Shown here: in pieces, positions 9,177-28,921 of the stretch | Layout of the letters: each line of letters opens with the position of its first letter | How positions within the stretch are numbered: position 1 is the first letter of the stretch | Source: Methanogenium sp. S4BF | GTDB taxonomy: Archaea > Halobacteriota > Methanomicrobia > Methanomicrobiales > Methanomicrobiaceae | Assembly: GCF_029633965.1 (NCBI RefSeq) | Contig: NZ_CP091277.1 | Coordinates: 620,001 to 684,000, forward strand | Reading direction: 5' to 3' | DNA: 64,000 nt | The notes under the pieces: generated by a model | The model's input: the letters and a program-made list of their open reading frames with translations, nothing else | Database searches by the model: none | Told to the model about the DNA's origin: nothing | Translations under genes and position numbers: made by a program

Positions 9177-12100
9177 CTAAAGAACTGTGATGTATCCTTT
9201 TTTTGTTTCAAAGTCAATGCCTTCTTTATTGATCACCCTCAGGGTTACAGAGTATGTACCTGGTTTTGCGTAGGTATGTCCCGTGTACTTTTCAGATGTG
9301 GTTATTCCGTCTCCAAAGTACCATGTCCATGAGGTGGGGTTTCCCTGACTTTGATCGGTAAAGAACACCTGCAGCGGTGCAGGACCACGAACGATGTCAG
9401 CAGTGAACGCCGCCACTGGAATTGTTGTTTCGGAAGGAACCTGTGCAGCATTTACAGATATGTAGCTTGTCTTAGTCTCCGTATCTGTTCCATCTGTATT
9501 TGTGACCTTCAGGGCAACCGTGTATGTGCCTGGCTGAGTATAAACATGTTCCGGGTTTTCTTCTGTCGCAGTTGTACCGTCACCAAAGTTCCATGTATAT
9601 GAATCAGGGCTGTTTGTGCTTTCATCCGTGAAGGTTACCTTTAGTGGAACAATGCCCGATACTTTATCCGCACTGAATGCTGACACAGGGGGGTTTGTGA
9701 CCGGAACGGGCATTTCCTCATTGGTTACAGTGATGAATCCTTGTTTAACTTCAAAGTCTATGCCTTCAGTGTTAATTGCTCTGAGGGTTACTGAGTATGT
9801 GCCTGGTTCTGTGTATGAATGTGCCGGGTTCTGTTCGTATGAGGTTTCCCCGTCTCCAAAGTACCATGTCCATGACGTGGGTACTCCCTGGCTTTGGTCA
9901 GTAAATGATACCTGCATTGGCGCAGGTCCGCTTACGTTGTCAGCAGTGAACGCTGCTACCGGTCCGGTAGATATCTGGGCAGCGGTTACGGATATGTAGT
10001 TTGTCTTTGTCTCCGTATCCGTTCCATCAGCATTTGTTACTTCAAGGGTAACGGTGTATGTGCCTGTTTGTGTATAGATATGTTCAGGGCTTTCTTCATA
10101 TGCAGTTGTCCCGTCACCAAAACTCCATACGTATGAATCCGGGTTGTTCGTACTTTCATCCGTGAAGGTAACCTTCAGTGGGAGGATGCCCGATACTTTA
10201 TCTGCACTGAATGCTGCCACCGGCGGGTTTGTGACCGGAGCGGGGGTGTCTTCAGCGGTAACCGTAATGTATCCCTGTTTAACCTCAAAGTCAATGCCTT
10301 CAGTATTAATCGCTCTGAGGGTTACTGAGTATGTGCCTGGTTCTGTGTAGGAATGTGCCGGGTTCTGTTCGTATGAGGTTTCCCCGTCTCCAAAGTACCA
10401 TGTCCATGACATGGGCACACCCTCGCTTTGATCGGTAAATGTTACCTCCATGGGCGCAGGTCCGCTTACGCTGTCAGCAGTGAACGCTGCTACAAGTTGC
10501 GCGGGTTCGGCCGGGAGCTGGGGGGCGACGGATATGTAGCCTGTCTTTGTTTCGGTATCCGTTCCGTCATCATTTGTGACTTTCAGGGTGACTGTGTATG
10601 TGCCTGGCTGCGCGTAGGTATGTGACGGGTTCTGGGTATTTGCCAGCCATTCGTCACCAAAGTTCCACGACCATGAATTCGGGCTGTTTGAACTTTCATC
10701 TGTGAATGTCACTGCCAGGGGTGCAGTACCGGATACTACATCAGCACTGAACCCTGCCACCGGCGGGTTTGTGACCGGAGCGGGTGTGTCTTCATCGGTA
10801 ACCGTGATGTATCCTTGTTTAACCTCAAAGTCAATGCCCTCTGCGTTGATCGCTCTGAGGGTTACTGAGTATGTGCCGGGTTTTGTGTAGGAATGTGCCG
10901 GGTTCTGTTCGTATGAGGTTTCTCCGTCTCCAAAGTACCAAGTCCAGGATGTGGGCACTCCCTCGCTTTGATCGGTAAATGTTACCTGCATTGGTGCCGG
11001 ACCGTAAACGTTGTCAGCAGTGAACGCTGCTGTTGGTTTAGCTGTAACAGATGGTACCTGACCATCTGTTACAGATATGTAACCTGTCTTTGTCTCGGTA
11101 TCTGTTCCGTCATCATTTGTGACTTTCAGGGTAACGGTGTATGTACCTGGCTGTGTGTAGATATGTCCGGGGTTTTCTTCGACTGCAGTTGTCCCGTCAC
11201 CAAAGTTCCATGCCCACAATTGGGGACTGTTTATACTGGTGTCCGTAAACTGAACGCTAAGGGGCGCCTGACCGGATGTAACATCCGTCGTGAACGCTGC
11301 AACCGGCGCTGATGGATTGGTTGTACCGCCGGATGTTACGGTGATGTAATCGGTTTTTGTTTCGGAATCTGAACCACTTTCACCTGTTGCTGTCAAAACT
11401 ACAGTATAGGTTCCTGGTTCTGAATAGGTGTGTGATGGGTTCTGTTCACTTGATTGTGCTCCGTCTCCAAAGCTCCATGATGAGGAGACTGCATTTGTGC
11501 TGATATCGGTGAACTGAACGGAAAGTGGTGCTGTGCCTGTTGTCGGACTTGCGCTGAATTCCGCTTCAGTAATGGTAGGTACGGGCATCACTTCTCCGGA
11601 AGTGAGGAATGTGTATTCATGACTTCCGGGAGCTGTTGTGATGATTATGGCTGATTTGTCTTCGGAAAGCTTCCAGCCGGTATATATTGCACCATCCTTC
11701 AGCACCTTTCCTATGTCTGTGTTTAGCTGGTATAATGAGACCTGACCTGTTGATGCTGCGTCAACCACAAGGGCAACTGAATTCCCTTCTTTATTGAGCG
11801 AAACACTATTCGTTCCGGAGGTCGCGATGAGGGGTGCACTATTTTTGTTCAGGTATGTGCCTTTGATGAGTGTATAGCTGTAATCCGATGATGACGCAGG
11901 TGTCCTGATGAATGCCATCTCAGCATTTGTCGAGAATGCTCCAAAGGTGCTGCTTCCCGCTCCTGAATAGATAGTATCAGTATGTGCTGTTGCACTGACT
12001 CGTATTGCATTCCCGTTTCCACTGACAGGTATTTCCTGAGAACTCTTCTTTTCTTCGTTCAGGTAGTCTGATGTGAGAACGGTTATCCGGTACAGATCTG

Positions 12101-14658: not shown

Positions 14659-15642
14659 ATGACGATTGCGGATTTGGTGAATCCTTTAAACCTTATGATT
14701 TCAGTTTTTTTTGTTGTACCATTCATAGCAACTGTTGTGGTGATGCCTTACCTGATCCAACGGCTTAAAGAGAATAATATTGTTGCAAAAGATATGTACA
14801 AAGCGGATCAACCGGATATTGCGGTAAACGGCGGAATCATTATTCTTCTTATATCTCTGCTTTCCCTGTCAGTTATTTCACTTTTTTATTGTAATTACAT
14901 TCTTCCGGCTAATTATGTAATAATAATGGTTGTCACTCTTTTTGCTCTTTTTGGGATTCTTGATGATATGATAAATATTGGCCGTCCTGCCAAACTTATT
15001 CTTCTGTATTACTGTTCATACTCTCTGATATCATGCGCAACGGTTACTCTTGTCTATTTACCTTTTATCGGAACAGTTGATTTAGGAATTTTTTATCTTC
15101 AACTAATCCTTCCTCTCTATGTTCCGGTAGTTGCCAACCTGGTTAATATGCATTCAGGGTTTAATGGTCTGGCGCCGGGTCTTTCTCTGATTGTCCTAAT
15201 CACGTTAATCTTAAAGACAATAGTAAATGCGGAAATAATGGATATTCTTTTTATTGTCTGTCTCACCGGTTCCCTTGCAGCATATTGGTTATTTGAGAAA
15301 TACCCTGCCCGTATTTTCTGGGGAAATATTGGGGCGTTATCTGTTGGTGCAGCAATAGGTGCAACGATAGTGATAGAAGGCTTCATTTTCAGTGGTTTTG
15401 TAATGCTCATTCCTCATGTTGTGAATTTTTTACTGTATGTATACTGGCGTCTTCATACCAAACGATATCCTATAGCCAAGTTTGGAAAAATCAGAGAGGA
15501 TGGAACTCTTGAAGTGCCGAATCCTCTTACCCTGAAGTGGGTATTGCCATATTTTTTCCCAATGACCGAACGGCAGGGAGTAACAGTGATGTATGCGCTG
15601 ACGGGGATATTTTGTTTCATTGGATTTATGATTCCCGGATAG
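14659..15642 (+). CDS. AglH-type polyprenyl-phosphate GlcNAc-1-phosphate transferase (MraY/WecA family)
   Basis: 327 residues with about ten membrane helices. It transfers a sugar-1-phosphate from a UDP-sugar to a dolichol-phosphate carrier, the first membrane step of N- or surface-glycan assembly. Visible motifs of the family are FGILDDMINIGRPAKL (DDx6K), NLVNMHSGFNGLAPG (the NxxNxxxGxNGL loop, with Ser-Gly where bacterial enzymes have Asp-Gly), GNIGALSVGAAIG and the archaeal FGKIREDGTLEVPNP segment near the C-terminus. It opens a long plus-strand gene series that continues to 26481. The sugar is not predictable. Confidence 0.85.
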   Translation: MTIADLVNPLNLMISVFFVVPFIATVVVMPYLIQRLKENNIVAKDMYKADQPDIAVNGGIIILLISLLSLSVISLFYCNYILPANYVIIMVVTLFALFGILDDMINIGRPAKLILLYYCSYSLISCATVTLVYLPFIGTVDLGIFYLQLILPLYVPVVANLVNMHSGFNGLAPGLSLIVLITLILKTIVNAEIMDILFIVCLTGSLAAYWLFEKYPARIFWGNIGALSVGAAIGATIVIEGFIFSGFVMLIPHVVNFLLYVYWRLHTKRYPIAKFGKIREDGTLEVPNPLTLKWVLPYFFPMTERQGVTVMYALTGIFCFIGFMIPG

Positions 15643-15681: not shown

Positions 15682-16119
15682 ATGTTGTTGGGGGGGTCAA
15701 TTATTGAATTTATTGCAATACTATTAGCATTTTTTCGGGCGATTTTTGGATTTTTTCTCATTTTGTTTATTCCGGGGTATACACTAACATTGGTGCTTTA
15801 TCCCGGGAAAACTGAGATTTCAGTTATAGAAAGAACAGGGCTTTCAATAGTCATGAGCATGGGTTCTGTTCTTCTTATTGTCCTTTTTATTGATGAGGTT
15901 CTGGCATTCAACACTACTCCGGTTAACATTGTTTGCGCAGTTCTTATCTTCTCTTTTTTAGCATTGTGCGTCTGGAAAACTGAGCTTATCCTGAAGAAAA
16001 ATTTCATGCAGAATGTCTTTCCTTTACGCCCTTCTGCAGTAATAATCAGGTCAAAGTCCGGAGATACCGATTCAAGGGAAAAAGAATCGGAAGAGGAAGG
16101 GAATAATGATGACTTCTGA
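15682..16119 (+). CDS. DUF1616 membrane protein, N-terminal half only
   Basis: 145 residues with about four hydrophobic segments. The pattern FLILFIPGYTLTLVLYPGK...ISVIERTGLSIVMSMG is the characteristic beginning of DUF1616 membrane proteins, found in archaeal surface-glycosylation loci. The usual outward C-terminal domain is absent; instead the protein ends in a charged, acidic-basic tail (DSREKESEEEG). A protein resembling that missing half is encoded at 8472-8891. Its end overlaps the next gene by 14 bases, so the two are likely translated together. Confidence 0.7.
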   Translation: MLLGGSIIEFIAILLAFFRAIFGFFLILFIPGYTLTLVLYPGKTEISVIERTGLSIVMSMGSVLLIVLFIDEVLAFNTTPVNIVCAVLIFSFLALCVWKTELILKKNFMQNVFPLRPSAVIIRSKSGDTDSREKESEEEGNNDDF

Positions 16120-17641
16120 TCTGACAAAATTGGTTCCTGAGAATCATACACTACGGGTAAATCAGCAGTTAAACGTCTCCTCTCTTTTGGACATCTCCCG
16201 ATCATTTGCCCGCAATGCTGAATATGAGTGTGACAGCAACCCTTCCGTTCAGGATGACATTCTCATACTTGAGTCTGGGCATCAACCGAATTTTTTTCCC
16301 TATTCGGGTGTTTGGAAAAAAGTATTTTTATTGGATCAATTTCGAAAAATGCTTGCTAGCAATGGTGATTGCGGAATCGCTTTTTTTGGATTTGCAGATC
16401 AGAATGCAACCACAGCTCCATTTCTTTATAAAAACCAGGTTCCGGCACTGAACAAAACCGGGATGCAAAAAATCGGGTTTACGGTGAAAGGTTCGGAAAA
16501 ATGGAAGCGCTTTGACACTCTTAAAAAACCTCTCCCTGAGGTGTGGGAAGAGGAAATGCTCAAAATGAAAAATTTGTCTGCAGGGACGAAATCAGAACTT
16601 CCTGCAATAATGGAAATTATGTGGAAGAGTTATGAACGTGCTGATTCGTTTTCTGATCTGAATGGATATATCTTTTCAAGGATTTCCAGAGAGATTCTGG
16701 GATTTGATGTCCACTTTTTCCGGTACTCCGACATTCATCGCAACCAATTGTTTTCGGATGAATGCAAACAAATCCTTGAAAAAATGGACTGTTACCAAAC
16801 AGTATACAATGATGTAATCAGAAATAAAAATATTCCGTCCCGGCAAGTTGTTTCAGGTGAGGTCCCATTTTGGTATCATTGCGATTGTGGCGGCAAAATT
16901 CCTCTTATGATTGATTCTTTTGGTATTTGCAGGGGTGAATGTCCCATCTGCAAAAACGAATATGAACTGGATTTTGATACCGATTTCAGTCGATTTGATG
17001 CTTTTTCACAAAATATGAGCTTTTCTGCGGTGAGCAGGAATCTGGTTTTTTCTGAGGGACTGGGTACACACATCTTCGTCTCAGGAGCAGGAGGGGGGCT
17101 CAGATACGGCAAAATATCAGATGCAATTTCATCGGAAATTGGTTTTAACAAACCTTTGACATGTTCCTGGTCCTCAAAGGATTATTACCTCGGAAAGATA
17201 CATGCGAATGCTGTAAAAGAGTTGCAAAAGATGTTTTCCCTCACCAAAGAAGAGGTGTTGGATGTAGCCATTGATGAGCTGATTCGTAAATTCCGGGAAA
17301 ATATGGAGCAAAAAATTACCGAAATGGAGGCAGAGGGTGCCGATAATAAGAGCATTCGTTTGTATCGGGGGAGATTTCTTGGATCCGCAAAAACTGCTGA
17401 AATGGTTTCCAGGGTATTCTCTACAATCCCCTCTATGTTTGATCTGTACCTGAATTTTGACAGAGAGGAGATTGTGAAGAGCTGGGTTAAAGCTCTGGAC
17501 TGTTCTGTTCAGGAAAAGTATGGCTCCACCTGTATCATTTCACAGGATGTTGTATATGACAGAAGAGAAGAATCAGGATTTTCTCCGGATGAAATACCGG
17601 TTTTATACGGAAATATGTCTGCTATAGGTGTGAAAAACTAA
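16106..17641 (+). CDS. BshC/WbqC-like protein with an inserted zinc ribbon
   Basis: 511 residues, apparently soluble. GHQPNFFPYSGVWKK (residues 58-72) and IAFFGFADQNATT downstream recall the N-terminus of BshC, the putative cysteine ligase that finishes bacillithiol; the HQPNFxP start is also seen in WbqC-like proteins. Residues 259-282 form a C-x-C-x13-C-x3-C-x2-C zinc ribbon that I do not associate with either family. A glycine-rich FVSGAGGGLRYGKISDA segment follows, then a helical, coiled-coil-like region. The gene is directly followed by a PIG-L deacetylase, the enzyme class that precedes BshC in bacillithiol synthesis. A strong GAGGAAGGG sequence precedes the start. Function is an inference; it may condense an amino acid with a deacetylated amino sugar. 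Confidence 0.45.
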   Translation: MMTSDLTKLVPENHTLRVNQQLNVSSLLDISRSFARNAEYECDSNPSVQDDILILESGHQPNFFPYSGVWKKVFLLDQFRKMLASNGDCGIAFFGFADQNATTAPFLYKNQVPALNKTGMQKIGFTVKGSEKWKRFDTLKKPLPEVWEEEMLKMKNLSAGTKSELPAIMEIMWKSYERADSFSDLNGYIFSRISREILGFDVHFFRYSDIHRNQLFSDECKQILEKMDCYQTVYNDVIRNKNIPSRQVVSGEVPFWYHCDCGGKIPLMIDSFGICRGECPICKNEYELDFDTDFSRFDAFSQNMSFSAVSRNLVFSEGLGTHIFVSGAGGGLRYGKISDAISSEIGFNKPLTCSWSSKDYYLGKIHANAVKELQKMFSLTKEEVLDVAIDELIRKFRENMEQKITEMEAEGADNKSIRLYRGRFLGSAKTAEMVSRVFSTIPSMFDLYLNFDREEIVKSWVKALDCSVQEKYGSTCIISQDVVYDRREESGFSPDEIPVLYGNMSAIGVKN

Positions 17642-18265
17642 ATGACAAAACGGATGCTAATCATTAGTCCGCATACGGATGATGGGGAACTTGGATGTGG
17701 GGGAAGCATCGCCCGTTTTATTCGTGAAGGATATGATGTTAAATATGTGGCACTTTCCTGTTGCGAACAATCAGTCCCTGAAGAATATCCGAGAGATATT
17801 CTCCGAACTGAAGTAAAGGCTGCAACAAAAAGACTTGGAATAGATGATCCGATCCTGCTTGAATATGAGGTCCGGAAATTCCCTCAGTATCGTCAGCAGA
17901 TTCTCGATGCATTAATTGAATTAAAAAAAGAAATAAAGCCGGTTACGGTATTTACGCCATCTTCTTTTGACACTCATCAGGATCATAAAGTGACCCGTGA
18001 AGAGACCTTACGCGCCTTCAAACAGTGTACTATCCTTGGATACGAACAGCCATGGAATAATATTACTTTCAATACCCTTGCGTTTGTTTCGTTAAATGAA
18101 GAATATCTCCAGATGAAAATTGATGCACTGGGCTGTTATGAAACTCAGAAGGAGAGGTCATACTTTAATTGCGACTTTATCCGGGGCCTTGCATTAACAA
18201 GGGGGACCCAGATTGAAGAACGGTATGCAGAGGCCTTTGAGGTAATTAAATGGGTGTTGCGGTGA
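17642..18265 (+). CDS. PIG-L family N-acetylglucosaminyl deacetylase
   Basis: 207 residues covering the whole PIG-L fold. The zinc-binding motifs are clear: SPHTDDGELGCGG at residues 9-21 and THQDHKVTREE near residue 115. These enzymes remove the N-acetyl group from GlcNAc attached to lipids, inositol or malate. The ATG follows directly after the stop codon of the BshC-like gene, so the pair is almost certainly coupled. The substrate could be a GlcNAc on the lipid carrier or a small GlcNAc conjugate. Confidence 0.88.
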   Translation: MTKRMLIISPHTDDGELGCGGSIARFIREGYDVKYVALSCCEQSVPEEYPRDILRTEVKAATKRLGIDDPILLEYEVRKFPQYRQQILDALIELKKEIKPVTVFTPSSFDTHQDHKVTREETLRAFKQCTILGYEQPWNNITFNTLAFVSLNEEYLQMKIDALGCYETQKERSYFNCDFIRGLALTRGTQIEERYAEAFEVIKWVLR

Positions 18266-18389: not shown

Positions 18390-19472
18390 ATGAAAATACT
18401 AATTGATATCGGACATCCCGCACATGTTCACTTTTTTAAGGGAACGATTACGGCTCTGTTGAGTAAAGGCCATGAAATTTTGATCGTAACCAGAAACAAA
18501 GAGATGACCTTAGACCTTCTGAATAAATCGGGATTTAATTATATTAATGTCGGTGAGCATAAAACGAGTATGGCCGGCAAAGCATTTGCGCTTATACAGT
18601 TTGATTACCGGATACTTCGGATTGCACAAAAATTCAGACCAGATCTTCTTATAGCACTGGGTTCCCCCTATCTTGCACATGTTTCAAAGCTGATAAAAAA
18701 GCCCTATATTTCATTCTGGGATACTGAGGATGCAAATTTGATTATCAGACTGACATCGCCGTTCACTGATATTATCTGTACTCCGTCCTGTTTTCTCAGG
18801 GATTTTGGTGAACGCCAGGTTCGGTTTGACGGGTATAAAGAACTCGCATATCTCCATCCGGAAGTGTTTCAGCCTGACCGTTCCGTGCTGGATGAACTGA
18901 ATCTGTCGGTGGATGACCGGTTCATCATTGTACGATTCATCTCCTGGGCAGCATCTCACGATGTCGGGTTAAAAGGGATGAAAAACCCGATAGAAGTTGT
19001 GAAAACACTGGAAAAATACGGAACTGTATACATAAGTTCTGAGAAACCTCCTGATCCTGAACTTGAGAAATATATTCTCCATATTTCTCCGGATAAGTTC
19101 CATTCTCTGTTGGCCTACGCCACATTATACATCGGGGAAGGAGGAACTATCACTACTGAAGCCGCAGTTTTGGGAACACCTGCGATTCATATCGAAGCGA
19201 ATTCCGAAGGGGAAGCAACGGGAAATACCAGTGGAAATTTCCTGGAGATACGGGATAAATATGAATTGATGTATTTTTTCCCGGATCAAGATGCCGCTCT
19301 TGAAAAAGCAGTTCAGATTCTTGAAAATACCGATTCGAAAAAGGAATGGCAGCAGAAACGAGAGCGTCTTCTTGTGGATAAAATTAATGTCTCCGCCTGG
19401 ATGACGGACTTCATCGCAGATTATCCGGAAAGCTACCAAAAATATCTTACAACGAGAGAGAGCAGGAAATGA
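18390..19472 (+). CDS. DUF354 family GT-B-like glycosyltransferase
   Basis: 360 residues. MKILIDIGHPAHVHFFKGTI and the later FWDTEDANLI and GEGGTITTEAAVLGTPAI segments are typical of DUF354, a family with the GT-B/UDP-GlcNAc 2-epimerase fold found in archaeal and bacterial glycan loci. It probably handles a nucleotide-sugar donor in the cytoplasm. AGGTAGGGGG just upstream of the ATG is a strong ribosome-binding site. Its stop overlaps the next start by four bases (ATGA). Confidence 0.8.
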   Translation: MKILIDIGHPAHVHFFKGTITALLSKGHEILIVTRNKEMTLDLLNKSGFNYINVGEHKTSMAGKAFALIQFDYRILRIAQKFRPDLLIALGSPYLAHVSKLIKKPYISFWDTEDANLIIRLTSPFTDIICTPSCFLRDFGERQVRFDGYKELAYLHPEVFQPDRSVLDELNLSVDDRFIIVRFISWAASHDVGLKGMKNPIEVVKTLEKYGTVYISSEKPPDPELEKYILHISPDKFHSLLAYATLYIGEGGTITTEAAVLGTPAIHIEANSEGEATGNTSGNFLEIRDKYELMYFFPDQDAALEKAVQILENTDSKKEWQQKRERLLVDKINVSAWMTDFIADYPESYQKYLTTRESRK

Positions 19473-21097
19473 TATCATTTGTCTGCAATACGGACGATCC
19501 GGTTTCCCGGTATGGCATTGATCATTTTATCCATACCGCCGGATTGTCTGTTCTGCCGGGTGGCAACACAGACTCCGGCGTATGCATCGGGTATGAAACA
19601 GAGGGGATGGGCCAATTTTCAGTCAGCGTTGTGAGAAATACAGCTATTGAAGTAAATGCCGGAGAAATTGCGACGCATAATCTGGAATACCCCCTGTTTC
19701 AGGTTCCGATTGATACATATGATGCCGGAAATCGGTGTATTGCAGAATTCAGGTCAGAGAACCTGAAATACCCCTGCATATCCGGTTCAGATTCAGGGAT
19801 ACTCATTGGATTTGATATTTTCAGATTGACAGGATCTCTCTTATCCGGTTATCTGGATAAAACAGGAGCCGGATCTGATGATGAACACTATCCACACCTG
19901 ATATCACAACCTCTTGTTGATTTTTATGAAGATATGCTGTTCAAAGCTATTCTGATGGGATGCAGCGAAATCGGGATGCCTCTCGTCAGGAAATCATACT
20001 GGCCTCCCGGCAGGGAATTTGCGGTCTGCCTCACCCATGATGTTGATGAATTTACAAAGACCTATCAATGGATTACCCGTCCGCTGAGATATCTGAAAGG
20101 AGGGGATTTTAATGGATTAAAAAACCAAATGAAGTCTTTTTCCCGAAAGATCAGAGGGCATGAACCATATTGGACTTTTGAAGAGATTATGCAAAATGAA
20201 AAGAAACAGGGTGTCTGTTCAACATACTTTTTCCTGAAGGAGTCCGGAAAAAAAAGCCTTTTCAGACCGGAATCCTGGCATCTGTACGGTCGCTCTCATT
20301 CTTTGCAGAAACCGTGTGTCATCGGGTTAATCCGGAAGTTGTCTGAAGAAGGGCATGAGATTGGTGTGCATGGGTCTACATTTTCCCATAATAACCCCAT
20401 CCTTCTCAATTGCGAGAAGGCAGAAATTGAAACACTTCTGGGCATACCTGTCAGAGGAATCCGACAGCATCGTCTGAATCTGACAATCCCTGATACATGG
20501 GATTTTCAGTCAGATGCCGGGTTTGTTTATGATACTTCTCTGGGATACAAGGCAGCGAATGGTACGGGTTTTCGGTGGGGAACCTGTTTTCCCTTCCATC
20601 CGCAGGGTGCAACCGGGGTACTTCCGCTTCTTGAGATCCCTCTCTCTCTCATGGATATTACTCTTCAGGATGGGGGTGCTGGATGGGATATCTGCAACAG
20701 CATGATTGAGCAGGTAAGAAATGTGAGGGGTGTCCTTACATTGCTCTGGCATCCTGCAGTGTTTAATAATCTGGAATACCCCGAAATCGGGAGCTGGTAC
20801 TGGAAGATTATTGAAGCATGCAAAGAAAACGGCGGATGGGTGACAACCGGTGGGGAAATTGCTTCGTGGTGGCATTCACGTGAGGCAACTGCATATGAAT
20901 GCCTGTATTCAGACGGTGAACTATCAGTTTGCTGCGACGGCAACGCCGAATGCTCTTATGATTTGTATGTTCCGGAAAACCGTTCTGCTGAACTGATTTC
21001 AGAAAATGCAACACTTTCTATGGCTGAAAACGGGCACTATATACTATCTTCTGAAAATGGGCATATGCCGAATAAAATGGTGGTGCGATTACGATGA
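19469..21097 (+). CDS. Polysaccharide deacetylase-like protein (CE4/NodB fold)
   Basis: 542 residues. The N-terminal ~170 are of unknown fold; the NodB-like domain follows, with CLTHDVDEF (the TxDxD metal/catalytic motif) at about 188, HEIGVHGSTFSHNN (HxxxH) at about 297 and a conserved end LWHPAVF at about 428. A C-terminal ~80-residue beta domain completes it. There is no signal peptide, so it acts on cytoplasmic or carrier-linked glycan. Similar deacetylases are standard members of bacterial exosortase-linked exopolysaccharide loci. It overlaps both neighbours by four bases, so it is part of a tight operon. Confidence 0.82.
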   Translation: MISFVCNTDDPVSRYGIDHFIHTAGLSVLPGGNTDSGVCIGYETEGMGQFSVSVVRNTAIEVNAGEIATHNLEYPLFQVPIDTYDAGNRCIAEFRSENLKYPCISGSDSGILIGFDIFRLTGSLLSGYLDKTGAGSDDEHYPHLISQPLVDFYEDMLFKAILMGCSEIGMPLVRKSYWPPGREFAVCLTHDVDEFTKTYQWITRPLRYLKGGDFNGLKNQMKSFSRKIRGHEPYWTFEEIMQNEKKQGVCSTYFFLKESGKKSLFRPESWHLYGRSHSLQKPCVIGLIRKLSEEGHEIGVHGSTFSHNNPILLNCEKAEIETLLGIPVRGIRQHRLNLTIPDTWDFQSDAGFVYDTSLGYKAANGTGFRWGTCFPFHPQGATGVLPLLEIPLSLMDITLQDGGAGWDICNSMIEQVRNVRGVLTLLWHPAVFNNLEYPEIGSWYWKIIEACKENGGWVTTGGEIASWWHSREATAYECLYSDGELSVCCDGNAECSYDLYVPENRSAELISENATLSMAENGHYILSSENGHMPNKMVVRLR

Positions 21098-22146
21098 ATG
21101 TGAAATTATGCAGAGTGGATAAAGAGAAGGCTGACGAATGGAACAGAATTGCCAATGAATCCCCTCAGGGGACGATATTTCATACCTGGAACTGGCTTAC
21201 CATCGCTGGTAAACACAGTGGATTCACTCTGCATCCGCTTATAGGATATGTGAACAATGAACCAGTAGCTCTGTTCCCTCTTTTTCATAGAAAAAAATTC
21301 GGTCTGAACTTTGTGTTCTCTCCTCCGCCTCACACGGCTCTTCTTTACCTTGGACCCGTATTTCGATTTGATGAGAAGATGCAGCAAAGCAGAAGAGAAC
21401 ACATATACTGCTCATTTCTGGAGGGGATCAATGATTATATCAAACGGAACCTGCATGCTCAGTATGTGCAGGTTTTTTTGCCCCCGAAATTATGTGATCC
21501 CCGCCCCTTTACGTGGTCAGGGTATACCGTTAAACCCGAATATAACTATGTAACGGACCTGAGTCCCGGGGCTGATTATCTCATACAAAGCCTTCCAAAA
21601 AAGAAGCGACAGGATATTAGCCGGGCTTACAAGCGGGGTATCACGGTTGAAATGGGTGGAAAAGAAGAGCTCGAAGTAATATATAATCTGATGGTTGACC
21701 GCTACAGGGAACAGGGCCGATCAGTACTTGTTCCGAAGGAATACTTATTCGAAATATATGACGCGTACTGTGATCAGATTAAGATATTTGTTACAAAATA
21801 TGAAGGTGAGATAGCAACCGGACTGATTGATGTTCTCTACAACAACTCATTATATAGCTGGATTGGAAATCCGAAACCACTGACTGAGATTTCACCATCT
21901 CCAAATGACCTCCTTTTGTGGGAGGAAATTCAATATTGCTGTGAACATGGGTTTACCTCATATGTTACGATGGGGGCTGCCGGCAATGAGCGTCTCCATA
22001 CCTATTATTCTTCGAAATTCAACCCGGATTTGGATATCCGTTTTTCAGCGAAAAAATGCTCTTCCATTATCGGATGCTTTGAATCGGCATATGCAAATGC
22101 ATACAAACCTGCGAAATCCTATATTAAAAAATCAGGATTTCCCTGA
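21094..22146 (+). CDS. FemAB/GNAT-like aminoacyl- or acyltransferase, copy 1
   Basis: 350 residues, duplicated GNAT fold of the FemAB type. Markers are GTIFHTWNWLTIAGKH (residues ~28-43), LPKKKRQDISRAYKRG in the middle (the basic region seen in FemAB-like proteins) and NERLHTYYSSKFNP near the end. Bacterial FemX/A/B enzymes add amino acids from aminoacyl-tRNA to lipid-linked muropeptides; a related family accompanies exosortase loci. Here it more likely modifies an amino sugar on the glycan. The start overlaps the deacetylase stop (ATGA). A paralog lies at 23399-24427. Confidence 0.75.
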   Translation: MNVKLCRVDKEKADEWNRIANESPQGTIFHTWNWLTIAGKHSGFTLHPLIGYVNNEPVALFPLFHRKKFGLNFVFSPPPHTALLYLGPVFRFDEKMQQSRREHIYCSFLEGINDYIKRNLHAQYVQVFLPPKLCDPRPFTWSGYTVKPEYNYVTDLSPGADYLIQSLPKKKRQDISRAYKRGITVEMGGKEELEVIYNLMVDRYREQGRSVLVPKEYLFEIYDAYCDQIKIFVTKYEGEIATGLIDVLYNNSLYSWIGNPKPLTEISPSPNDLLLWEEIQYCCEHGFTSYVTMGAAGNERLHTYYSSKFNPDLDIRFSAKKCSSIIGCFESAYANAYKPAKSYIKKSGFP

Positions 22147-22216
22147 GAATCTATTTATATGGCTCATTATTATTCATTCTTAATTCGTGAAGTGTTGTAA
22201 AAGGGGGAGTAAAAAT

Positions 22217-23371
22217 ATGAATGCTGTTGTGCCTACGGGTGTTGGAGATCATATTGGTCTTGCTGTTGTACGCTCCCTTGGAAAAAAGAAAATTTCTACC
22301 ACTGTTGTCTCGAATGAAAAGAGATCAATGCCGTTTTACTCGAAATACTGCACAAAAAAACGAATTGCCGAATATAACGACGAATTTCTTTCTGAATTAA
22401 CAGAAAATGACATCATAATGCCCAACGGGGAAGATGAAATGCTTTTTTTTGCAAAGAATGCCCCTTTGTATGACTATTCACTTGCTTTTCCTGATTATGC
22501 AACCCTTGAGACCATCATTGATAAATCACACCTGATGCGGTTTGCAGAAATGCATCATATTTCTGCTCCAAAGACATTTTTCATTGATGATCCTGATTTT
22601 CTTCATGAAATAGCCCATAGTCTGACATATCCTGCCATAATTAAGCCAAACCGGGGGAGAGGAGGGAGAGGCATCGTACGGGTTGACAGTCCTGATATGG
22701 TAGAGGAAACGTATGCAAACATCCTTTTTCAGTACGGACCTTCAACGATTCAGGAATACATCCCTTTTACGAAGCGGTATTCCTCTGCTGTTTTGACAGA
22801 TAATACTTTTGAGATTCAGAGGATCTGTATCATACAGGAAAAGAGAACCTATCCGCTTAATACCGGTCCAGGCTGTTTTGTTGAGACTGTTGCCAATGAA
22901 GAGATTATGAATCTGACATTTGATATCATGAATGCTTTAAAAATCCGGGGCGTAACCGAACTTGATTTTGTTATCGACGAACGTGATGGAAAGCCTAAGT
23001 TATTGGAGATAAATCCCCGATTTTGGGGCTCAGTACAGTGCGCAATCTCCGCAGGAGTTGACTTTCCGTTTTTGCTGTATGAGATCGCTACAGATAATTC
23101 TATTGCTGTTTCGTATGATTATCGGGCAGGAATAACGGGGAGAAATGTTTTCTGTAATGATCTTCGGCACCTGCTGACCGTTCTCAGGGGAAGGTTTCCG
23201 TTACCATATAAACTGAAAACGATGAGTGATTTTATTAAATTTTATCAGGATGATGCCTATTTTATCTTTTCATCCGAAGATATTCGCCCGTTTATCTCAA
23301 TATTCGAATATTATCTTTTAAGAAAGACAGATCAGGTACGTTTGAATTTTTTCAAGGAAATATCTAAATAG
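22217..23371 (+). CDS. ATP-grasp ligase (carboxylate-amine ligase)
   Basis: 384 residues. The N-terminal preATP-grasp domain begins MNAVVPTGVGDHIGLAVVRSL; the ATP-grasp core has YPAIIKPNRGRGGRGIVRV (ATP-binding Lys and glycine loop) at about 148-166 and ELDFVIDERDGKPKLLEINPRFWG (Mg-binding Asp/Glu...ExNxR) at about 253-276. Such enzymes form amide bonds between a carboxylate and an amine through an acyl phosphate. I start at ATG 22217, preceded by GGGGGAG; an in-frame GTG at 22187 would lack this. Sitting between two FemAB-like genes, it may make the amino-acid or peptide group they transfer. Confidence 0.82.
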   Translation: MNAVVPTGVGDHIGLAVVRSLGKKKISTTVVSNEKRSMPFYSKYCTKKRIAEYNDEFLSELTENDIIMPNGEDEMLFFAKNAPLYDYSLAFPDYATLETIIDKSHLMRFAEMHHISAPKTFFIDDPDFLHEIAHSLTYPAIIKPNRGRGGRGIVRVDSPDMVEETYANILFQYGPSTIQEYIPFTKRYSSAVLTDNTFEIQRICIIQEKRTYPLNTGPGCFVETVANEEIMNLTFDIMNALKIRGVTELDFVIDERDGKPKLLEINPRFWGSVQCAISAGVDFPFLLYEIATDNSIAVSYDYRAGITGRNVFCNDLRHLLTVLRGRFPLPYKLKTMSDFIKFYQDDAYFIFSSEDIRPFISIFEYYLLRKTDQVRLNFFKEISK

Positions 23372-23398
23372 TAGCTGGACTTATTGGTGCTTGGTAAC

Positions 23399-24427
23399 AT
23401 GGGATTTTATATACAGATTGCTGATGATAATCATCAAAAAGAGTGGGATGATTATATCCAATCTTCATCCTTTGGTACAATTTTCCATACATGGCAATGG
23501 CTGAAAATTATGGAAAAACACACGAATAGTACGTTGTATCCCCTTCAGATATTCAAAGGAACGACGCATATTGCCAGCTATCCGATTTTTTTTAAGAAAA
23601 AAGGGTTTGTGAAAGTTGCCCTTTCTCCTCCTTATAACACAGACATACTATATCTTGGTCCTGTTATATCTCATTATGAATCCTTTAAACAACCTAAAAA
23701 AGAAGAGTATCTAATGGGTATTCAGTCTGAGATTGATAAGTTTCTCTTTTCTGACCTCGGATGCAATTATGTAAATCTTCGTACAGCACCGGGATTATTG
23801 GATTCACGGTCTCTTCGATGGGCAGGTTACCACGTTGAACCATTATACTCCTATCGATTGGATTTGAATACGGGGCTTGATAATATATGGACCAGCCTGC
23901 ACAGATCGGTTCGAAAAAATATCAAAAATGCTCAGGATAAAGGAATCGTCATTGAAAAGGGGGATAAAGATGATCTTTTCTACATTCATTCTGAAATACA
24001 ACGAAGATTCGGTGAACAGGGCAGAAAAAAAGATGATATTTTATTGTATTTAGATGAGGTTTTTCATCAGTATAATGGCCGCAATCTGGACATATTTGTG
24101 GCAAAATATCTGGGGGAAACCGTAAGCGGTGTTATTCATCTGAATTATAATGGCATTATGTATCAATGGGTGGGACTTCCCAAAGAAGAAATCGATGGCA
24201 TCTCACCAAATGATCTGCTGGTCTGGGAAAGCATAAAGTCAGGCCGTGAAATGGGGATGAGATATTATGATATCATGGATGGGGGAGATAATCCACGATT
24301 GAGACGATTTAAATCGAAATTTAATCCTGAGCTGTCCATCTGGTATTCTGCAGAGAAATATTCTCATCCGATATATGGATTCGCAAGGACGGCATCCCGA
24401 AAAACCGGGTATCATGTTAAAATTTGA
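23399..24427 (+). CDS. FemAB/GNAT-like aminoacyl- or acyltransferase, copy 2
   Basis: 342 residues, paralogous to the protein at 21094-22146: GTIFHTWQWLKIMEKH near the start, a basic VRKNIKNAQDKG segment in the centre and NPRLRRFKSKFNPELS near the end. The ATG at 23399 is preferred over an in-frame TTG 15 bases earlier because it puts the conserved tryptophan and GTIFHTW block at exactly the same residue numbers as in copy 1. Two non-identical transferases suggest two successive additions or two acceptor positions. Confidence 0.75.
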   Translation: MGFYIQIADDNHQKEWDDYIQSSSFGTIFHTWQWLKIMEKHTNSTLYPLQIFKGTTHIASYPIFFKKKGFVKVALSPPYNTDILYLGPVISHYESFKQPKKEEYLMGIQSEIDKFLFSDLGCNYVNLRTAPGLLDSRSLRWAGYHVEPLYSYRLDLNTGLDNIWTSLHRSVRKNIKNAQDKGIVIEKGDKDDLFYIHSEIQRRFGEQGRKKDDILLYLDEVFHQYNGRNLDIFVAKYLGETVSGVIHLNYNGIMYQWVGLPKEEIDGISPNDLLVWESIKSGREMGMRYYDIMDGGDNPRLRRFKSKFNPELSIWYSAEKYSHPIYGFARTASRKTGYHVKI

Positions 24428-24490: not shown

Positions 24491-25048
24491 TTGCGAAATA
24501 TTGCTGAAGTGTACGAACGAATTCGGTTCAGTCTTCTTGTAAAAGGATTTCTGCATATTCTTGCAATGAATATCCCCAATGACCGCCTACGCAATACCTT
24601 CTACCGATGGCGGGGAACGAAAATCGGGAACAATGTTGGGATTGGGTATGGGGTTTTCATTGAGGAATCACGCCCATACCTCATAGAGATTGAGGATGGA
24701 GTGAATATTGGCCCACGGGCTGTGATTGTAGCCCATGATTCAAGTTTTCACTGCATCAGTCCTGAAGTTCCGATACTTTTTGGACGGGTAATAGTCCGTA
24801 AGAATGGGTATATCGGAGCAAAAGCGGTTATCCTGCCGGGTGTTACGATCGGGGAGGGTGCCATTGTTGCAGCGGGAGCTGTTGTTACAAAGGATGTTGC
24901 GCCAGGCACGATTGTGGCAGGTGTTCCGGCAAAACCATTAACCACTGTTAAAGACGCGTTGAGTCGGTTTAATGACCTGGATGCATTGCGAAAGGAGATG
25001 GATTTGGTAAAATCCTGCACATCCACTGCCCAAAGTGAGGACAGATAA
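24491..25048 (+). CDS. Left-handed beta-helix acyltransferase (WbbJ/maltose O-acetyltransferase type)
   Basis: 185 residues with hexapeptide repeats ([16 protein letters not shown], then [25 protein letters not shown]) and the usual VAGVPAKPL ending of acetyl-CoA-dependent sugar O- or N-acetyltransferases. The catalytic histidine region is visible as [10 protein letters not shown]. The start is TTG at 24491; a very strong AAGGAGGGGGGG sequence directly upstream decides this choice. Probably acetylates a sugar of the same glycan. The stop codon overlaps the flippase start (TAATG). Confidence 0.87.
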
Positions 25049-26481
25049 TGGATCGTAATCTTTCTTTTTATACCCTGTTTTATGTAGGTTCACTTGTTCT
25101 CATGCGTTTTTGCGGGATCATTACCAAAATTATCCTTGCACGTGCGATTACCCCCTTTGAATATGGAATCATTATGCTTATTGTGATTTCCCTGCCTGCT
25201 ATCTTCCAGCTGATGACCAATTTTTGCATTTTTGATATTCTGGGCCATGCGGGAGAGGGACGAAAATATTTTGGTTTTTCTATGGCATATGGGATCCTTG
25301 CAACCATTGGTGTGGGGCTGCTTCTCTTTGCCTTTCCGGTTCAGATCTGTAATTTTCTGAATATACCGGTGGAGATGTGGCCATTCCTGTTTTCAATATT
25401 AATTATTGTGTTGCTTTCTGTTACGTTAAGTGTGGACATCATGGGATTATTGCGGGGAAAGAAAAACCATTCAATTGCTGCTGCCATCTCCGCAGCGCCG
25501 GGTCTATTGAGGCTTGGTTTGATATTTTTGGCAGTGTCAGTATTGGGAATAACCGATTTTGATATCATATTCATTATTTTTGCCATCCCGCCACTAATCG
25601 TCCTTCTTGCAGTAATTCTCAGGAAGGCAAAGACAATTATTAATTCAATTCATTCTATCCAGATTCCGTCCCGAAAAATTCTGATTTTTGGTTTTTCAGT
25701 GTATATTATTGGCGTCTGGCTTACATTATGCCAAAATCTTAATAAAATCGTTATCAGCCATGATCTTGGGATTGAATTTCAGGCCTTTTTTGATGTATCA
25801 CTTACACTGGCAGCGGTAATCACCTTTTTTTCATCGGCATTATATCTGATATCAGTTCCCGAATCCACAGGAGCAGAGGATAAATCTCTTCTCCTGAACC
25901 GGCCCGGAGGACTGGGGGACATTGGGAGACTTCTTTTTGCTATGACCCTGTTTTGTGTGCTTATTCTTGCATTTTATGCAAAAGAACTGATTGTCCTGTT
26001 ATTTTCCGCCGATTATGCACCTGCAGGTGATTACATTCTTCTTATTGCAATTGGATATGTTTTCATATTTATTCAACAGTTTAGTGCCTATGTAAATGTT
26101 TCATTTTATGAGAAATCAACGAAACCATTTGTTCTCATTACCGTAATCAGTTTATTGATATTCCCTGTTTTTAGCCATATACTAATTGGGTATTTTGGAT
26201 TTCAGGGAGCATATCTGGCATTTATTATAATTCTTGTCCTCTATTCTCTTGCTACAATATTGGTATCCCAGGATATTGAGCCTCTTTGTGTACTCTTCCA
26301 CAGGGTTGTGTATCTGATTATCTCATTCGCTGCAGTGTATCTCGTACTGTTTGTTGGGAATCTCTCGTTATTTCCAGGGATTGTTGTGTCATCATTACTG
26401 TTTGGAGGCCTGATTTTTGCCACCCGATATCTGGATGTATCCATTATTCGGGATTTAATCGGTAGAACGAAACAAGAATAA
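25048..26481 (+). CDS. Wzx-type polysaccharide flippase (MOP superfamily)
   Basis: 477 residues with about 12-14 hydrophobic helices, beginning with the FARAITPFEYGIIM-like pattern typical of Wzx/MATE-type oligosaccharide flippases. It should move the lipid-linked glycan made by the preceding genes across the membrane. It is the last gene of the tight series from 14659. Confidence 0.82.
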   Translation: MDRNLSFYTLFYVGSLVLMRFCGIITKIILARAITPFEYGIIMLIVISLPAIFQLMTNFCIFDILGHAGEGRKYFGFSMAYGILATIGVGLLLFAFPVQICNFLNIPVEMWPFLFSILIIVLLSVTLSVDIMGLLRGKKNHSIAAAISAAPGLLRLGLIFLAVSVLGITDFDIIFIIFAIPPLIVLLAVILRKAKTIINSIHSIQIPSRKILIFGFSVYIIGVWLTLCQNLNKIVISHDLGIEFQAFFDVSLTLAAVITFFSSALYLISVPESTGAEDKSLLLNRPGGLGDIGRLLFAMTLFCVLILAFYAKELIVLLFSADYAPAGDYILLIAIGYVFIFIQQFSAYVNVSFYEKSTKPFVLITVISLLIFPVFSHILIGYFGFQGAYLAFIIILVLYSLATILVSQDIEPLCVLFHRVVYLIISFAAVYLVLFVGNLSLFPGIVVSSLLFGGLIFATRYLDVSIIRDLIGRTKQE

Positions 26482-26816
26482 ATTTCAGATGTGAGGAGAT
26501 TTTTCATATTCTCTCTTTTACGATTATTTTGCATCGGTAATGTGTAGTCTTCAATACAGGGAGGGATTGATGCGATCTTCGCATTGAACTGAAGATCAGC
26601 AGTATTTTTTTCGATTTATCCCCCGTGGCTGAATGATACTTTAATGCAAAATGAGCCGGGTCTGAATTTTTTTGGGGCGTATCAATGTCAGGCACTTGCG
26701 TTGGGCACTATTAACTGGCACTTGGTTATATGCTGGTATGAATATGTTGGCATCAGAGTGGCTGTTGCAGGCACTTGTTATTACCACGTGTATTTTCTGC
26801 ACAGTCTGGCGGTTCA
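26482..26816. other. Intergenic region
   Basis: 335 bp after the flippase. The octamer GGCACTTG occurs three times (near 26690, 26717 and 26769). A possible open frame from TTG 26672 is hydrophobic but runs on into the next gene in another frame, so I do not call it. Part of this region must hold the promoter of the following secreted protein. Confidence 0.4.
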
Positions 26817-27749
26817 ATGAATATGCGAATCATGATGGGAATTCTCTGGGTTGGAATGGCTTTGATTCTGTTTACGCCGGCAATGGCATATACAATAGAC
26901 GGAGATCTGAGTGACTGGGGTCTTTCCGGATTAAATACAGGTGACTGGTCAGAAAATAAAACATGGATTCCTGCCGATGGTGTATCATTTATTATTGAGG
27001 ATAATACAAATCCCTGGTTTTTGTCTGATTATCGTGGTGTACATATATCAGGAACAGCTGAATCATGGAAGTTCTATAATGAGCAGCAGAGAATTCATTC
27101 AATAACCAAAAGACGATTGAATGAGCCATACGGCGGAGAAGAGTATGATATGGAAGCATACTATTTTGATCAGGACCCGGATTTCATTTACCTGGCCATT
27201 GTAACTTCTCTGAAACCGGATGGGGAGGGGGATACCCGTCCCATGGATCTTGCGCTCAACTTTGGCAATAATCCGGTACTGGATGATCTTGGATATGAAT
27301 ATGGAGTGAAAATACGGGAAGACTCACTTCAGGGATCGATTATTCGGAGTCCGGTATGGGAAAAGTCAGACTATTTCTCCCCGGCCAAACCCGATTTCAT
27401 TCAGTCGGGAACGGGTTCCTATGTGGGAAAGGCAGAGATATCATATACCAATAGCTGGCTGACCCGTACAGATAACGGGTTTGATAATTATGTTATTGAG
27501 ATTGCCATCCGAAAAACAGATGTTGGTATGAATGGATATCCACAAATAAATTCAATTTATTATGGCGACAGCAGCATGAATGAAGTTACCTTCGCCCCTG
27601 AATTTCCGGGAATTGCCTTATCTCAGGCGATAATTACAGGGATGGTATTCTGTGCATATCTGTTCCGGGGGAGAGTCAGTTACCGGTCCTGTCAGGACCG
27701 AAATCCTGAGGTACAAATAATGAATACTCAGAACATAAAACCTGAGTGA
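26817..27749 (+). CDS. Secreted protein with a PEF-CTERM-like sorting signal, probable archaeosortase substrate
   Basis: 310 residues from the ATG at 26817 (a longer frame from 26775 adds a non-signal-like stretch). A signal peptide (1-24, ending AMA) is followed by a beta-rich ectodomain that starts with YTIDGDLSDWGL, a sequence style seen in CBM9/DOMON-like modules. Near the C-terminus comes APEFPGIAL (P261-E262-F263), a hydrophobic helix (about 267-285) and basic RGRVSYR: the tripartite PEF-CTERM signal. Unusually, about 20 more hydrophilic residues follow. The next gene is an archaeosortase, so this is most simply its dedicated substrate. Confidence 0.72.
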   Translation: MNMRIMMGILWVGMALILFTPAMAYTIDGDLSDWGLSGLNTGDWSENKTWIPADGVSFIIEDNTNPWFLSDYRGVHISGTAESWKFYNEQQRIHSITKRRLNEPYGGEEYDMEAYYFDQDPDFIYLAIVTSLKPDGEGDTRPMDLALNFGNNPVLDDLGYEYGVKIREDSLQGSIIRSPVWEKSDYFSPAKPDFIQSGTGSYVGKAEISYTNSWLTRTDNGFDNYVIEIAIRKTDVGMNGYPQINSIYYGDSSMNEVTFAPEFPGIALSQAIITGMVFCAYLFRGRVSYRSCQDRNPEVQIMNTQNIKPE

Positions 27750-27833: not shown

Positions 27834-28733
27834 ATGGATAGTAATTCAATCAATATCACAACTCCGCAAAAGGCTGCGAAGATCTGGGTAATCCTTGCGA
27901 TTGCTGCCCTCTCTCTCTTTTTTGTGTTATCCTCCCTATCCTACTCAAAAGTTGATGCAGTCAGTATCTGGATACTGACCTGCATTTCAATGATCTATTT
28001 CTCTACCAAAACCCAGAAGTACCTCGGAAAAAGAGAACAGATTGCTGTAGTTTTGGCAGGATTCGGGATTTGTATATTCAGTTTTCTCAATATCCCTCTT
28101 GGCCTTGGCAATCCCCCGTTTTCCATTGCTGAATTCTCTCTTTTACTCTCAGGAATCAGTATAGTAGTGTTTGGACTGCTTGCATTCAGAACATTGATAT
28201 TCCCGTTATTCTTTCCAATCATTGCTGTTCTTGGGTTTGAAATGTACGAAATTTTCATTCGCCATGAGGACTGGCTGATAGCCCCCCTGATTCCCCCGAC
28301 AATCACCCTTACAACCGGTATCATCCGCCTGATGGGAATTGATCCTAGTGTGAATGGAAATATCATCTCATTTTTATCCATTTCCGGTGAAACAATCCGA
28401 CTTGCCGTGGTGTCAGACTGTACCGGCATCTGGTCACTTGGAACGTTCACTGTTGCATCCATAATTGTTCTGTCAACATTTCCTGAGGCGATCTCAAAGC
28501 GGGGAGCCCTTCTGATACTCATTGGATATATCGGAACGTATGCATCGAATATCGGAAGGATTGCAATCATTTCCCTGAGTGGCTATATTTACGGGCCTGA
28601 GGGAATCATTGAACAGGTGCATATTCATACCGGCTGGATTTTGTTTACTGCCTGGATGGTCATATTCTGGTATTATTTCTTTACCCGTCATCTTGGTTTT
28701 TCGTTTACGGGAAAGAAGAGACAGGCCGAATAG
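27834..28733 (+). CDS. Archaeosortase/exosortase family transpeptidase, probably ArtC-like
   Basis: 299 residues, about eight membrane helices. The family's catalytic triad is visible: Cys196 in SDCTGIWSLG, Arg242 in ASNIGRIAI and His263 or His265 in HIHTGW. Archaeosortases cut the C-terminal sorting signal of secreted proteins and are thought to attach them to a membrane lipid or other acceptor. The adjacent gene encodes a protein with a PEF-type signal, which suggests the ArtC (PEF-CTERM) branch; the branch assignment is inference. The location next to a complete glycan-assembly set parallels bacterial exosortase/exopolysaccharide loci. Confidence 0.87.
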   Translation: MDSNSINITTPQKAAKIWVILAIAALSLFFVLSSLSYSKVDAVSIWILTCISMIYFSTKTQKYLGKREQIAVVLAGFGICIFSFLNIPLGLGNPPFSIAEFSLLLSGISIVVFGLLAFRTLIFPLFFPIIAVLGFEMYEIFIRHEDWLIAPLIPPTITLTTGIIRLMGIDPSVNGNIISFLSISGETIRLAVVSDCTGIWSLGTFTVASIIVLSTFPEAISKRGALLILIGYIGTYASNIGRIAIISLSGYIYGPEGIIEQVHIHTGWILFTAWMVIFWYYFFTRHLGFSFTGKKRQAE

Positions 28734-28921
28734 CGACCGGATGATTAGGTTTCTGAGTGCTGATTCTGATTATTTCACAAAATATTTACTCTGATAAGAG
28801 TCATACTATCGTTCTCTCTAACCGCCGTGATGCCGTTTACCTTTTATCTATTCACTGAGAGTTATCTAAGCACGATCAGGTGTACCTGATATCTGAAAAC
28901 AAAAGAGTGTTGGAAAGAAAT

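Follow-up and report, generated by a model that had tools for sequence, protein, structure and literature searches.

The stretch of archaeal DNA analysed here (the window: 64,000 nucleotides, positions 620,001 to 684,000 of contig NZ_CP091277.1) is part of the complete 2.5-Mb genome of Methanogenium sp. S4BF. It carries two abutting genes, one for a BshC-like protein and one for a PIG-L family deacetylase, within a surface-polysaccharide cluster that also encodes an archaeosortase. The BshC-like protein belongs to a genuine archaeal family without a name in the libraries searched; this family has a class I synthetase-like fold, invariant motifs and a conserved zinc ribbon, and it bridges BshC and WbqC. 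Both the BshC-like family and WbqC are tied to PIG-L deacetylases and to archaeosortase C. As far as the reaction can be read from homology, the pair probably forms a two-step sugar-amine module of an archaeal surface-polysaccharide/archaeosortase C locus.

The gene pair and its kinship to BshC and WbqC

The pair and the signatures of its first member are the following:

16106..17641, forward strand: BshC/WbqC-like protein of 511 residues, class I aminoacyl-tRNA-synthetase-like fold with an inserted zinc ribbon (AlphaFold model, Foldseek, hhalign)
16280..16291, forward strand: HQPN motif, residues 59-62; H59 and Q60 invariant in 31 relatives; aligns with GQQAG of BshC and xQPxYLP of WbqC
16880..16951, forward strand: zinc ribbon CxC...CxxC, residues 259-282; C259, C261, C279 and C282 invariant; weak profile match to the Kti11/Dph3 CSL domain
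17075..17107, forward strand: glycine motif FVSGAGGGLRY, residues 324-334; G327 invariant, Y334 in at least 90%; aligns with GPGExxYW of BshC and YISGxGGxxY of WbqC
17642..18265, forward strand: PIG-L family N-deacetylase of 207 residues with HTDD and HQDH metal motifs (Pfam PF02585, 8.6e-20)

The TAA stop codon of the first gene is followed directly by the ATG of the second, which is the gapless junction that an initial annotation of this DNA had described, and the HQPN motif lies at the residues to which that annotation had assigned it. The 511-residue protein has no Pfam or NCBIfam match of its own. Among 31 BshC-like sequences, the residues H59, Q60, G68, K72, P113, G119, P142, N186, F204, P254, W256, Y257, C259, C261, C279, C282, G327, Y361, S443 and D446 are invariant. 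The cysteines of the window protein stand at positions 259, 261, 275, 279 and 282, such that the ribbon pattern originally read, C-x-C-x13-C-x3-C-x2-C, is literally present. However, Cys275 is not conserved among the relatives, and the true ribbon thus is C-x-C-x17-C-x2-C within PFWYHCxCGGK...C-x2-C. With respect to the signatures of class I lysyl-tRNA synthetase (LysRS), the alignment shows HQPN instead of HIGH, and KMSKS is absent; an ordinary class I LysRS is encoded elsewhere in the same genome.

The AlphaFold (AF2) model of the BshC-like protein is confident (predicted local distance difference test 90.1, predicted template modelling score 0.90). Its top Foldseek match in the PDB is BshC of B. 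subtilis (4wbd; E 1.9e-13, template modelling score 0.61/0.58), followed by class I LysRS (1irx; 2.6e-10) and then by other class I synthetases. A PDB sequence search using the single protein returned chance matches only. For profile comparisons, a BshC profile was built from three annotated BshC proteins; a BshC fragment used as bait served solely to retrieve records annotated bshC. In hhalign, the family matched BshC with a probability of 94 (E 1.4e-7) and with the motifs in register: HQPN falls on GQQAG, K72 on the BshC-invariant K104, and SGAGGxxxY on GPGExxYW. The match to archaeal WbqC proteins (probability 97, E 1.3e-10) rose to a probability of 97.8 and E 7.2e-13 when the ribbon columns were removed, and now reached the glycine motif. 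Since removing these columns both strengthens and lengthens the match, the ribbon is an insert that separates the two motifs of a shared core. Control comparisons with eight unrelated profiles gave probabilities of at most 0.6. In a direct comparison, neither the WbqC nor the BshC profile finds the other, and it is for this reason that the BshC-like family can be said to bridge them. The ribbon profile has a weak likeness to the CSL ribbons of Kti11/Dph3. Profile search and structure prediction thus upheld what the initial annotation had supposed: a relationship to BshC and WbqC, a class-I-synthetase-like core, and a ribbon that is part of this fold.

By library models, the window protein matches neither BshC (PF10079/TIGR03998) nor WbqC (PF08889). 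TIGR03998 matches 5 of 31 family members (best 3.3e-7), one Bathyarchaeal member lies barely over the PF10079 cut-off (27.1 vs 27.0 bits), and one relative scores 22.6 bits with PF08889 against a cut-off of 21.3, the others being below. Single members match the WbqC, BshC, LysRS and CSL models at 1e-4 to 1e-3.

With BshC, the family shares the overall fold, counterparts of the GQQ and GPGE-Y motifs, a similar length and a PIG-L partner. It differs in that identity is only about 10-14%, in the zinc ribbon, which the BshC sequences compared lack, and in its setting in surface-polysaccharide/archaeosortase loci, without BshA in the genome. With WbqC, it has in common the ribbon-free core match, the xQPN.LP and SGxGGxxY motifs, and the gene context (a PIG-L partner and, in Methanosarcina-type archaea, archaeosortase C loci), whereas WbqC is about 230 residues long and carries neither the ribbon nor the long C-terminal helical part. 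The likeness to class I LysRS (PF01921) consists of the second-best fold match and a cysteine ribbon in the corresponding region; the archaeal family differs from it by the absence of KMSKS, by a weak, ribbon-dependent sequence match and by a non-synthetase gene context.

Spread of the family and its coupling to PIG-L

Of 295 genomes of the phylum, 23 encode relatives that carry the motifs listed above, and a search of the GTDB species set (84,980 genomes) turned up 38 loci. With taxon names as given in the source records, they are found in Methanomicrobiales, Methanoperedens, Archaeoglobi, Alkanophagales, Altiarchaeales and Thermoplasmatales; a distant set of relatives, group 2, comes from Bathyarchaeota, Nanohaloarchaea, Hadesarchaea and bog 'Methanomicrobia'. 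Phage records, plasmid records and IMG/VR yielded no relative of the protein. The nearest relatives of the locus are in Methanogenium, with 68-71% identity for the BshC-like protein and up to about 90% for neighbouring genes. A copy of the Methanogenium-like cluster with up to 89% protein identity is also found on a contig labelled Deltaproteobacteria (locus L029); this sole bacterial label almost certainly reflects a misbinned Methanogenium contig.

The second protein of the pair belongs to PIG-L by its Pfam match and its two metal motifs. The best NCBIfam model for it is BshB1, but the scores with the BshB models TIGR04001 and TIGR04000 (63 and 39 bits) stay below the cut-offs of 182 and 195, respectively. 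In 32 of the 36 loci that were testable given contig ends, no more than about 110 bases separate the BshC-like gene from a PIG-L frame, which is mostly downstream of it and in eight loci upstream. The exceptions are L034, where the PIG-L frame is 3.1 kb off and on the opposite strand, a pair of Methanoperedens loci, and one additional copy in a bog archaeon. In a PIG-L tree, in which some deep branches are long and their placement is unsure, the group-1 partners, i.e., those of the group that includes the window genome, form one clade with HTDD, and those of the other groups fall into different clades with HPDD. The partner can stand on either side of the gene and comes from different PIG-L clades, which is an argument for a joint role of the two activities, as had been proposed from the window.

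The archaeosortase cluster and WbqC in the same position

Around the pair, the window holds these genes:

14659..15642, forward strand: glycosyl transferase family 4 (GT4), MraY/WecA-like sugar-1-phosphate transferase (Pfam PF00953, 6.1e-24); recurrent neighbour
15682..16119, forward strand: DUF1616 membrane protein (Pfam PF07760, 3.1e-12); overlaps the 5' start of the BshC-like gene and adjoins this gene in many loci
18390..19472, forward strand: DUF354, glycosyltransferase/epimerase-like (Pfam PF04007, 2.2e-21); recurrent neighbour
19469..21097, forward strand: VimE-like polysaccharide deacetylase (NCBIfam NF053580, 8e-25, 87 bits, below the equivalog cut-off of 440)
21094..22146, forward strand: FemAB/GNAT aminoacyl-transferase-like protein, VimA-type, TIGR03019-like (TIGR03019 1.4e-12, below the equivalog cut-off; Pfam FemAB 7.5e-8)
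22187..23371, forward strand: ATP-grasp ligase (Pfam PF02655, 3.4e-11)
23384..24427, forward strand: second FemAB/GNAT protein, TIGR03019-like (TIGR03019 3.6e-11, below the equivalog cut-off)
24491..25048, forward strand: hexapeptide-repeat acyltransferase, sugar acetyltransferase-like (Pfam PF00132, 4.9e-11; NeuD/PglB-type 1.7e-19, below cut-off)
25048..26481, forward strand: multi-spanning membrane protein, flippase-like as judged from its sequence; no family match; recurrent neighbour
26775..27749, forward strand: secreted protein with a PEF-CTERM-like end (APEF, membrane span, RGR), read from the sequence; no NCBIfam match
27834..28733, forward strand: archaeosortase, archaeosortase C-like (Pfam PF09721, 2.5e-24; TIGR04178 over cut-off)

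The order in the window is thus GT4, DUF1616, BshC-like, PIG-L, DUF354, VimE-like, FemAB, ATP-grasp, FemAB, acyltransferase, flippase-like, PEF-CTERM-like protein and archaeosortase. In Archaeoglobi, it is GT4, DUF1616, BshC-like, PIG-L, archaeosortase, PEF-CTERM protein, DUF354, VimE-like, FemAB, acyltransferase, FemAB and flippase, and the archaeosortase C there passes its cut-off. The window archaeosortase, a member of the EpsH family 10 kb downstream of the pair, is the only PF09721 match of the genome; with the archaeosortase C model TIGR03762 it scores 47.6 bits against a cut-off of 100, which its equivalents in L111, L046, L116 and L117 pass. At related loci, single-seed phmmer missed divergent archaeosortases, and seeding from the coordinates of PF09721 matches succeeded. 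An archaeosortase lies about 1.5-12 kb away in 13 of 16 group-1 genomes, the window genome included.

Over the whole genome, the PEF-CTERM model TIGR03024 gave a best score of 13.1 against a cut-off of 23, and PEF-CTERM signals were read by pattern instead. PEF with a membrane span and a basic end was counted 19 times on open reading frames (ORFs) of these loci, most permuted or near motifs 0-2 times; the control motif EFP reached a count of 9 owing to its overlap with PEFP. Ten distinct relatives of the 26775..27749 protein at related loci end in a signal of this type. The window protein itself has an odd 22-residue tail past RGR, absent from its Methanogenium-like relative L030, possibly a frameshift or natural variation. 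Just 5' of the window, the ORF at genome positions 616045-616698 (L126:10045-10698) ends in VPEFPTMMIPVFLVGSVMVAASVLKKE and is likely a PEF-CTERM protein, though below the TIGR03024 cut-off.

WbqC appears in the same position in other archaea. Among the 295 genomes, and with p values that take no account of relatedness, archaeosortase C is present in 11 of 16 genomes with a group-1 BshC-like gene versus 31 of 279 others (p 3.6e-7), and in 17 of 25 genomes with WbqC versus 25 of 270 (p 7.9e-11); for either gene, p is 1e-14. Archaeosortase C occurs together with both genes in only two genomes, one of which has its WbqC 1 Mb away. In Methanosarcina-type genomes without a BshC-like gene, WbqC and PIG-L occur in the archaeosortase C loci. 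Nine such loci of this one family were chosen for having WbqC and archaeosortase C no more than 13 kb apart; a PIG-L gene is present in every one of them, often immediately next to WbqC, along with DUF1616, DUF354 and, as a rule, a PEF-CTERM gene. The module is optional, since both WbqC and PIG-L are missing from another three archaeosortase C loci of the family. A PIG-L gene close to WbqC proper, and often adjoining it, is seen in L129-L137, which are archaeosortase C loci, and in L141. A literature search found no paper establishing the function of WbqC, and its proximity to PIG-L suggests one.

Further features lie near the cluster. Within the cluster itself, the VimE-like gene and the two VimA-type FemAB genes, which enclose an ATP-grasp gene, could provide another route to an aminoacyl sugar. 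On the reverse strand, 1415-4111 and 9177-14111 encode two proteins with near-identical N-terminal parts (weak DUF4962), one of them with nine PKD repeats; they represent a recent duplication of a large surface protein and flank 4312-7956. The latter encodes a 1214-residue multi-membrane protein with only a weak match to a carboxypeptidase-regulatory domain; this protein is conserved close to the cluster in Methanogenium-like genomes. A diphthine-ammonia ligase (Dph6) is encoded at 28880-29602, and Dph6-homologous frames lie about 9 kb from group-2 pairs in L052, L057, L058, L060-L062 and L128; the nearness of Dph6 and the Dph3-like ribbon of the ligase are probably a coincidence.

What the pair may make

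The module that we favour would act in two steps. First, as its family and metal motifs suggest, the PIG-L protein would strip the N-acetyl group from an N-acetylglucosamine-type sugar, probably nucleotide- or lipid-linked. Second, the BshC/WbqC-type protein would use adenosine triphosphate to couple an amino acid, through its carboxyl group, to the amine thus exposed, yielding an aminoacyl-amide sugar. This second step is suggested by the homology to BshC, described as adding cysteine to glucosamine-malate (PMC5372718), and by the class I synthetase fold; HQPN and SGxGG would be the counterparts of the BshC and WbqC motifs, and the ribbon, whose point of insertion matches that of the ribbon of class I LysRS, probably stabilises the connective domain. 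The product would be a surface glycan unit, and it may supply the primary amine for the transfer of PEF-CTERM proteins by archaeosortase C.

In this context, two known systems are instructive. In the sortase-like system of Porphyromonas gingivalis, the linking sugar is made by N-acetyl removal by VimE and Ser/Gly transfer by VimA; VimA is kin to TIGR03019, and the authors suggested similar products for exosortases (PMC7468200). The logic is shared, namely to de-N-acetylate a sugar, to add an amino acid to the amine and to use the product as a sortase-like acceptor, and the archaeal cluster also holds VimE-like and VimA-type genes; in the PIG-L/BshC-like pair, however, each of the two steps falls to an enzyme family other than that in P. 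gingivalis. The acceptor proposed for archaeosortase A is an amine lipid, the product of PssA/PssD, and it was the gene neighbourhood that first raised this suspicion (PMC7157517). There, too, the archaeosortase gene lies beside genes making the proposed amine acceptor, though that acceptor is a phospholipid amine and here it would be an aminoacyl sugar. Because the same neighbourhood logic applies, an aminoacyl sugar would by analogy be a natural candidate acceptor for archaeosortase C.

Going one step further, we tentatively propose, as a rather unlikely extension, that archaeosortase C attaches PEF-CTERM proteins to the amine of an aminoacyl-sugar made by PIG-L together with the BshC-like protein (or WbqC). 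Class I synthetase-like enzymes would then build an equivalent of the linking sugar of P. gingivalis, and WbqC would be a second member of the ligase superfamily. We hold this acceptor role less firmly than the chemistry, because sequence cannot tell which pair makes the acceptor and which decorates the polysaccharide.

Several points weigh against our interpretation. The reaction, the amino acid used and the sugar-acceptor role are what we infer, and the co-occurrence p values disregard relatedness. The two Methanoperedens loci hold the ligase and an archaeosortase, with no PIG-L within 10 kb. The LysRS profile match (probability 26) spans the ribbon and is lost once this is removed. A PDB fold search with a WbqC model gave no significant match, only weak ones to tyrosyl-tRNA synthetase, which leaves the profile match as the basis of the link to WbqC. 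Furthermore, the pair is retained in group 2 (Bathyarchaeota, Nanohaloarchaea and bog 'Methanomicrobia'), where it has no archaeosortase in its vicinity, and the pair thus has a use beyond the archaeosortase. Finally, as the clearest archaeosortase clusters hold VimE-like and FemAB genes too, the acceptor could come from these.

The last two points also speak for a quite possible alternative, in which the pair decorates a surface-layer glycan or exopolysaccharide repeat with an amino acid by the same chemistry; it would have no sortase-acceptor role, and its nearness to the archaeosortase would reflect the clustering of surface genes. The GT4, DUF354, acyltransferase and flippase-like genes that share the cluster fit this well. 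It accounts less readily for the Archaeoglobi, where ligase, PIG-L, archaeosortase and PEF-CTERM protein follow one another almost without gaps, and for the recurrence of WbqC and PIG-L at archaeosortase C loci in a different lineage.

That the BshC-like protein is a scaffold, a regulator or another enzyme without synthetase chemistry seems improbable to us. The missing KMSKS signature and the lack of a paper on WbqC function would be in keeping with it, but the retrieved BshC sequences likewise lack KMSKS, yet BshC is credited with the activity cited above, and the motif residues are invariant across distant archaea. Even less credence is due to a tRNA-dependent aminoacyl transferase or divergent tRNA synthetase, to which the class I LysRS match and the corresponding place of the ribbon might point, since the genome has an ordinary class I LysRS and the gene is surrounded by sugar genes. 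Least probable of all is the synthesis of a bacillithiol-like low-molecular-weight thiol, an idea that could appeal to the structural likeness to BshC and to a deacetylase of the BshB superfamily but that we rejected, since the best BshA (TIGR03999) score in the genome is 128 bits against a cut-off of 273.7, i.e., there is no true BshA, the PIG-L protein is far under the BshB cut-offs, and the gene is located in a surface-polysaccharide cluster.

On the grounds of missing BshA and of location, the thiol branch of the initial annotation finds no support, and its preference for a glycan over a thiol is supported. Overall, its reading of kinship, fold and coupling stood, and the joining of an amino acid to the sugar amine is a prediction. 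What it did not notice were the archaeosortase/PEF-CTERM setting, the genes resembling VimE and VimA, and the replacement by WbqC in other archaea.

The present analysis joins BshC, WbqC and class I LysRS, families that no paper found in our literature search had linked. It offers a concrete, testable function for WbqC, and it would provide a genetic handle on what archaeosortase C and, by extension, the exosortases attach their protein substrates to.

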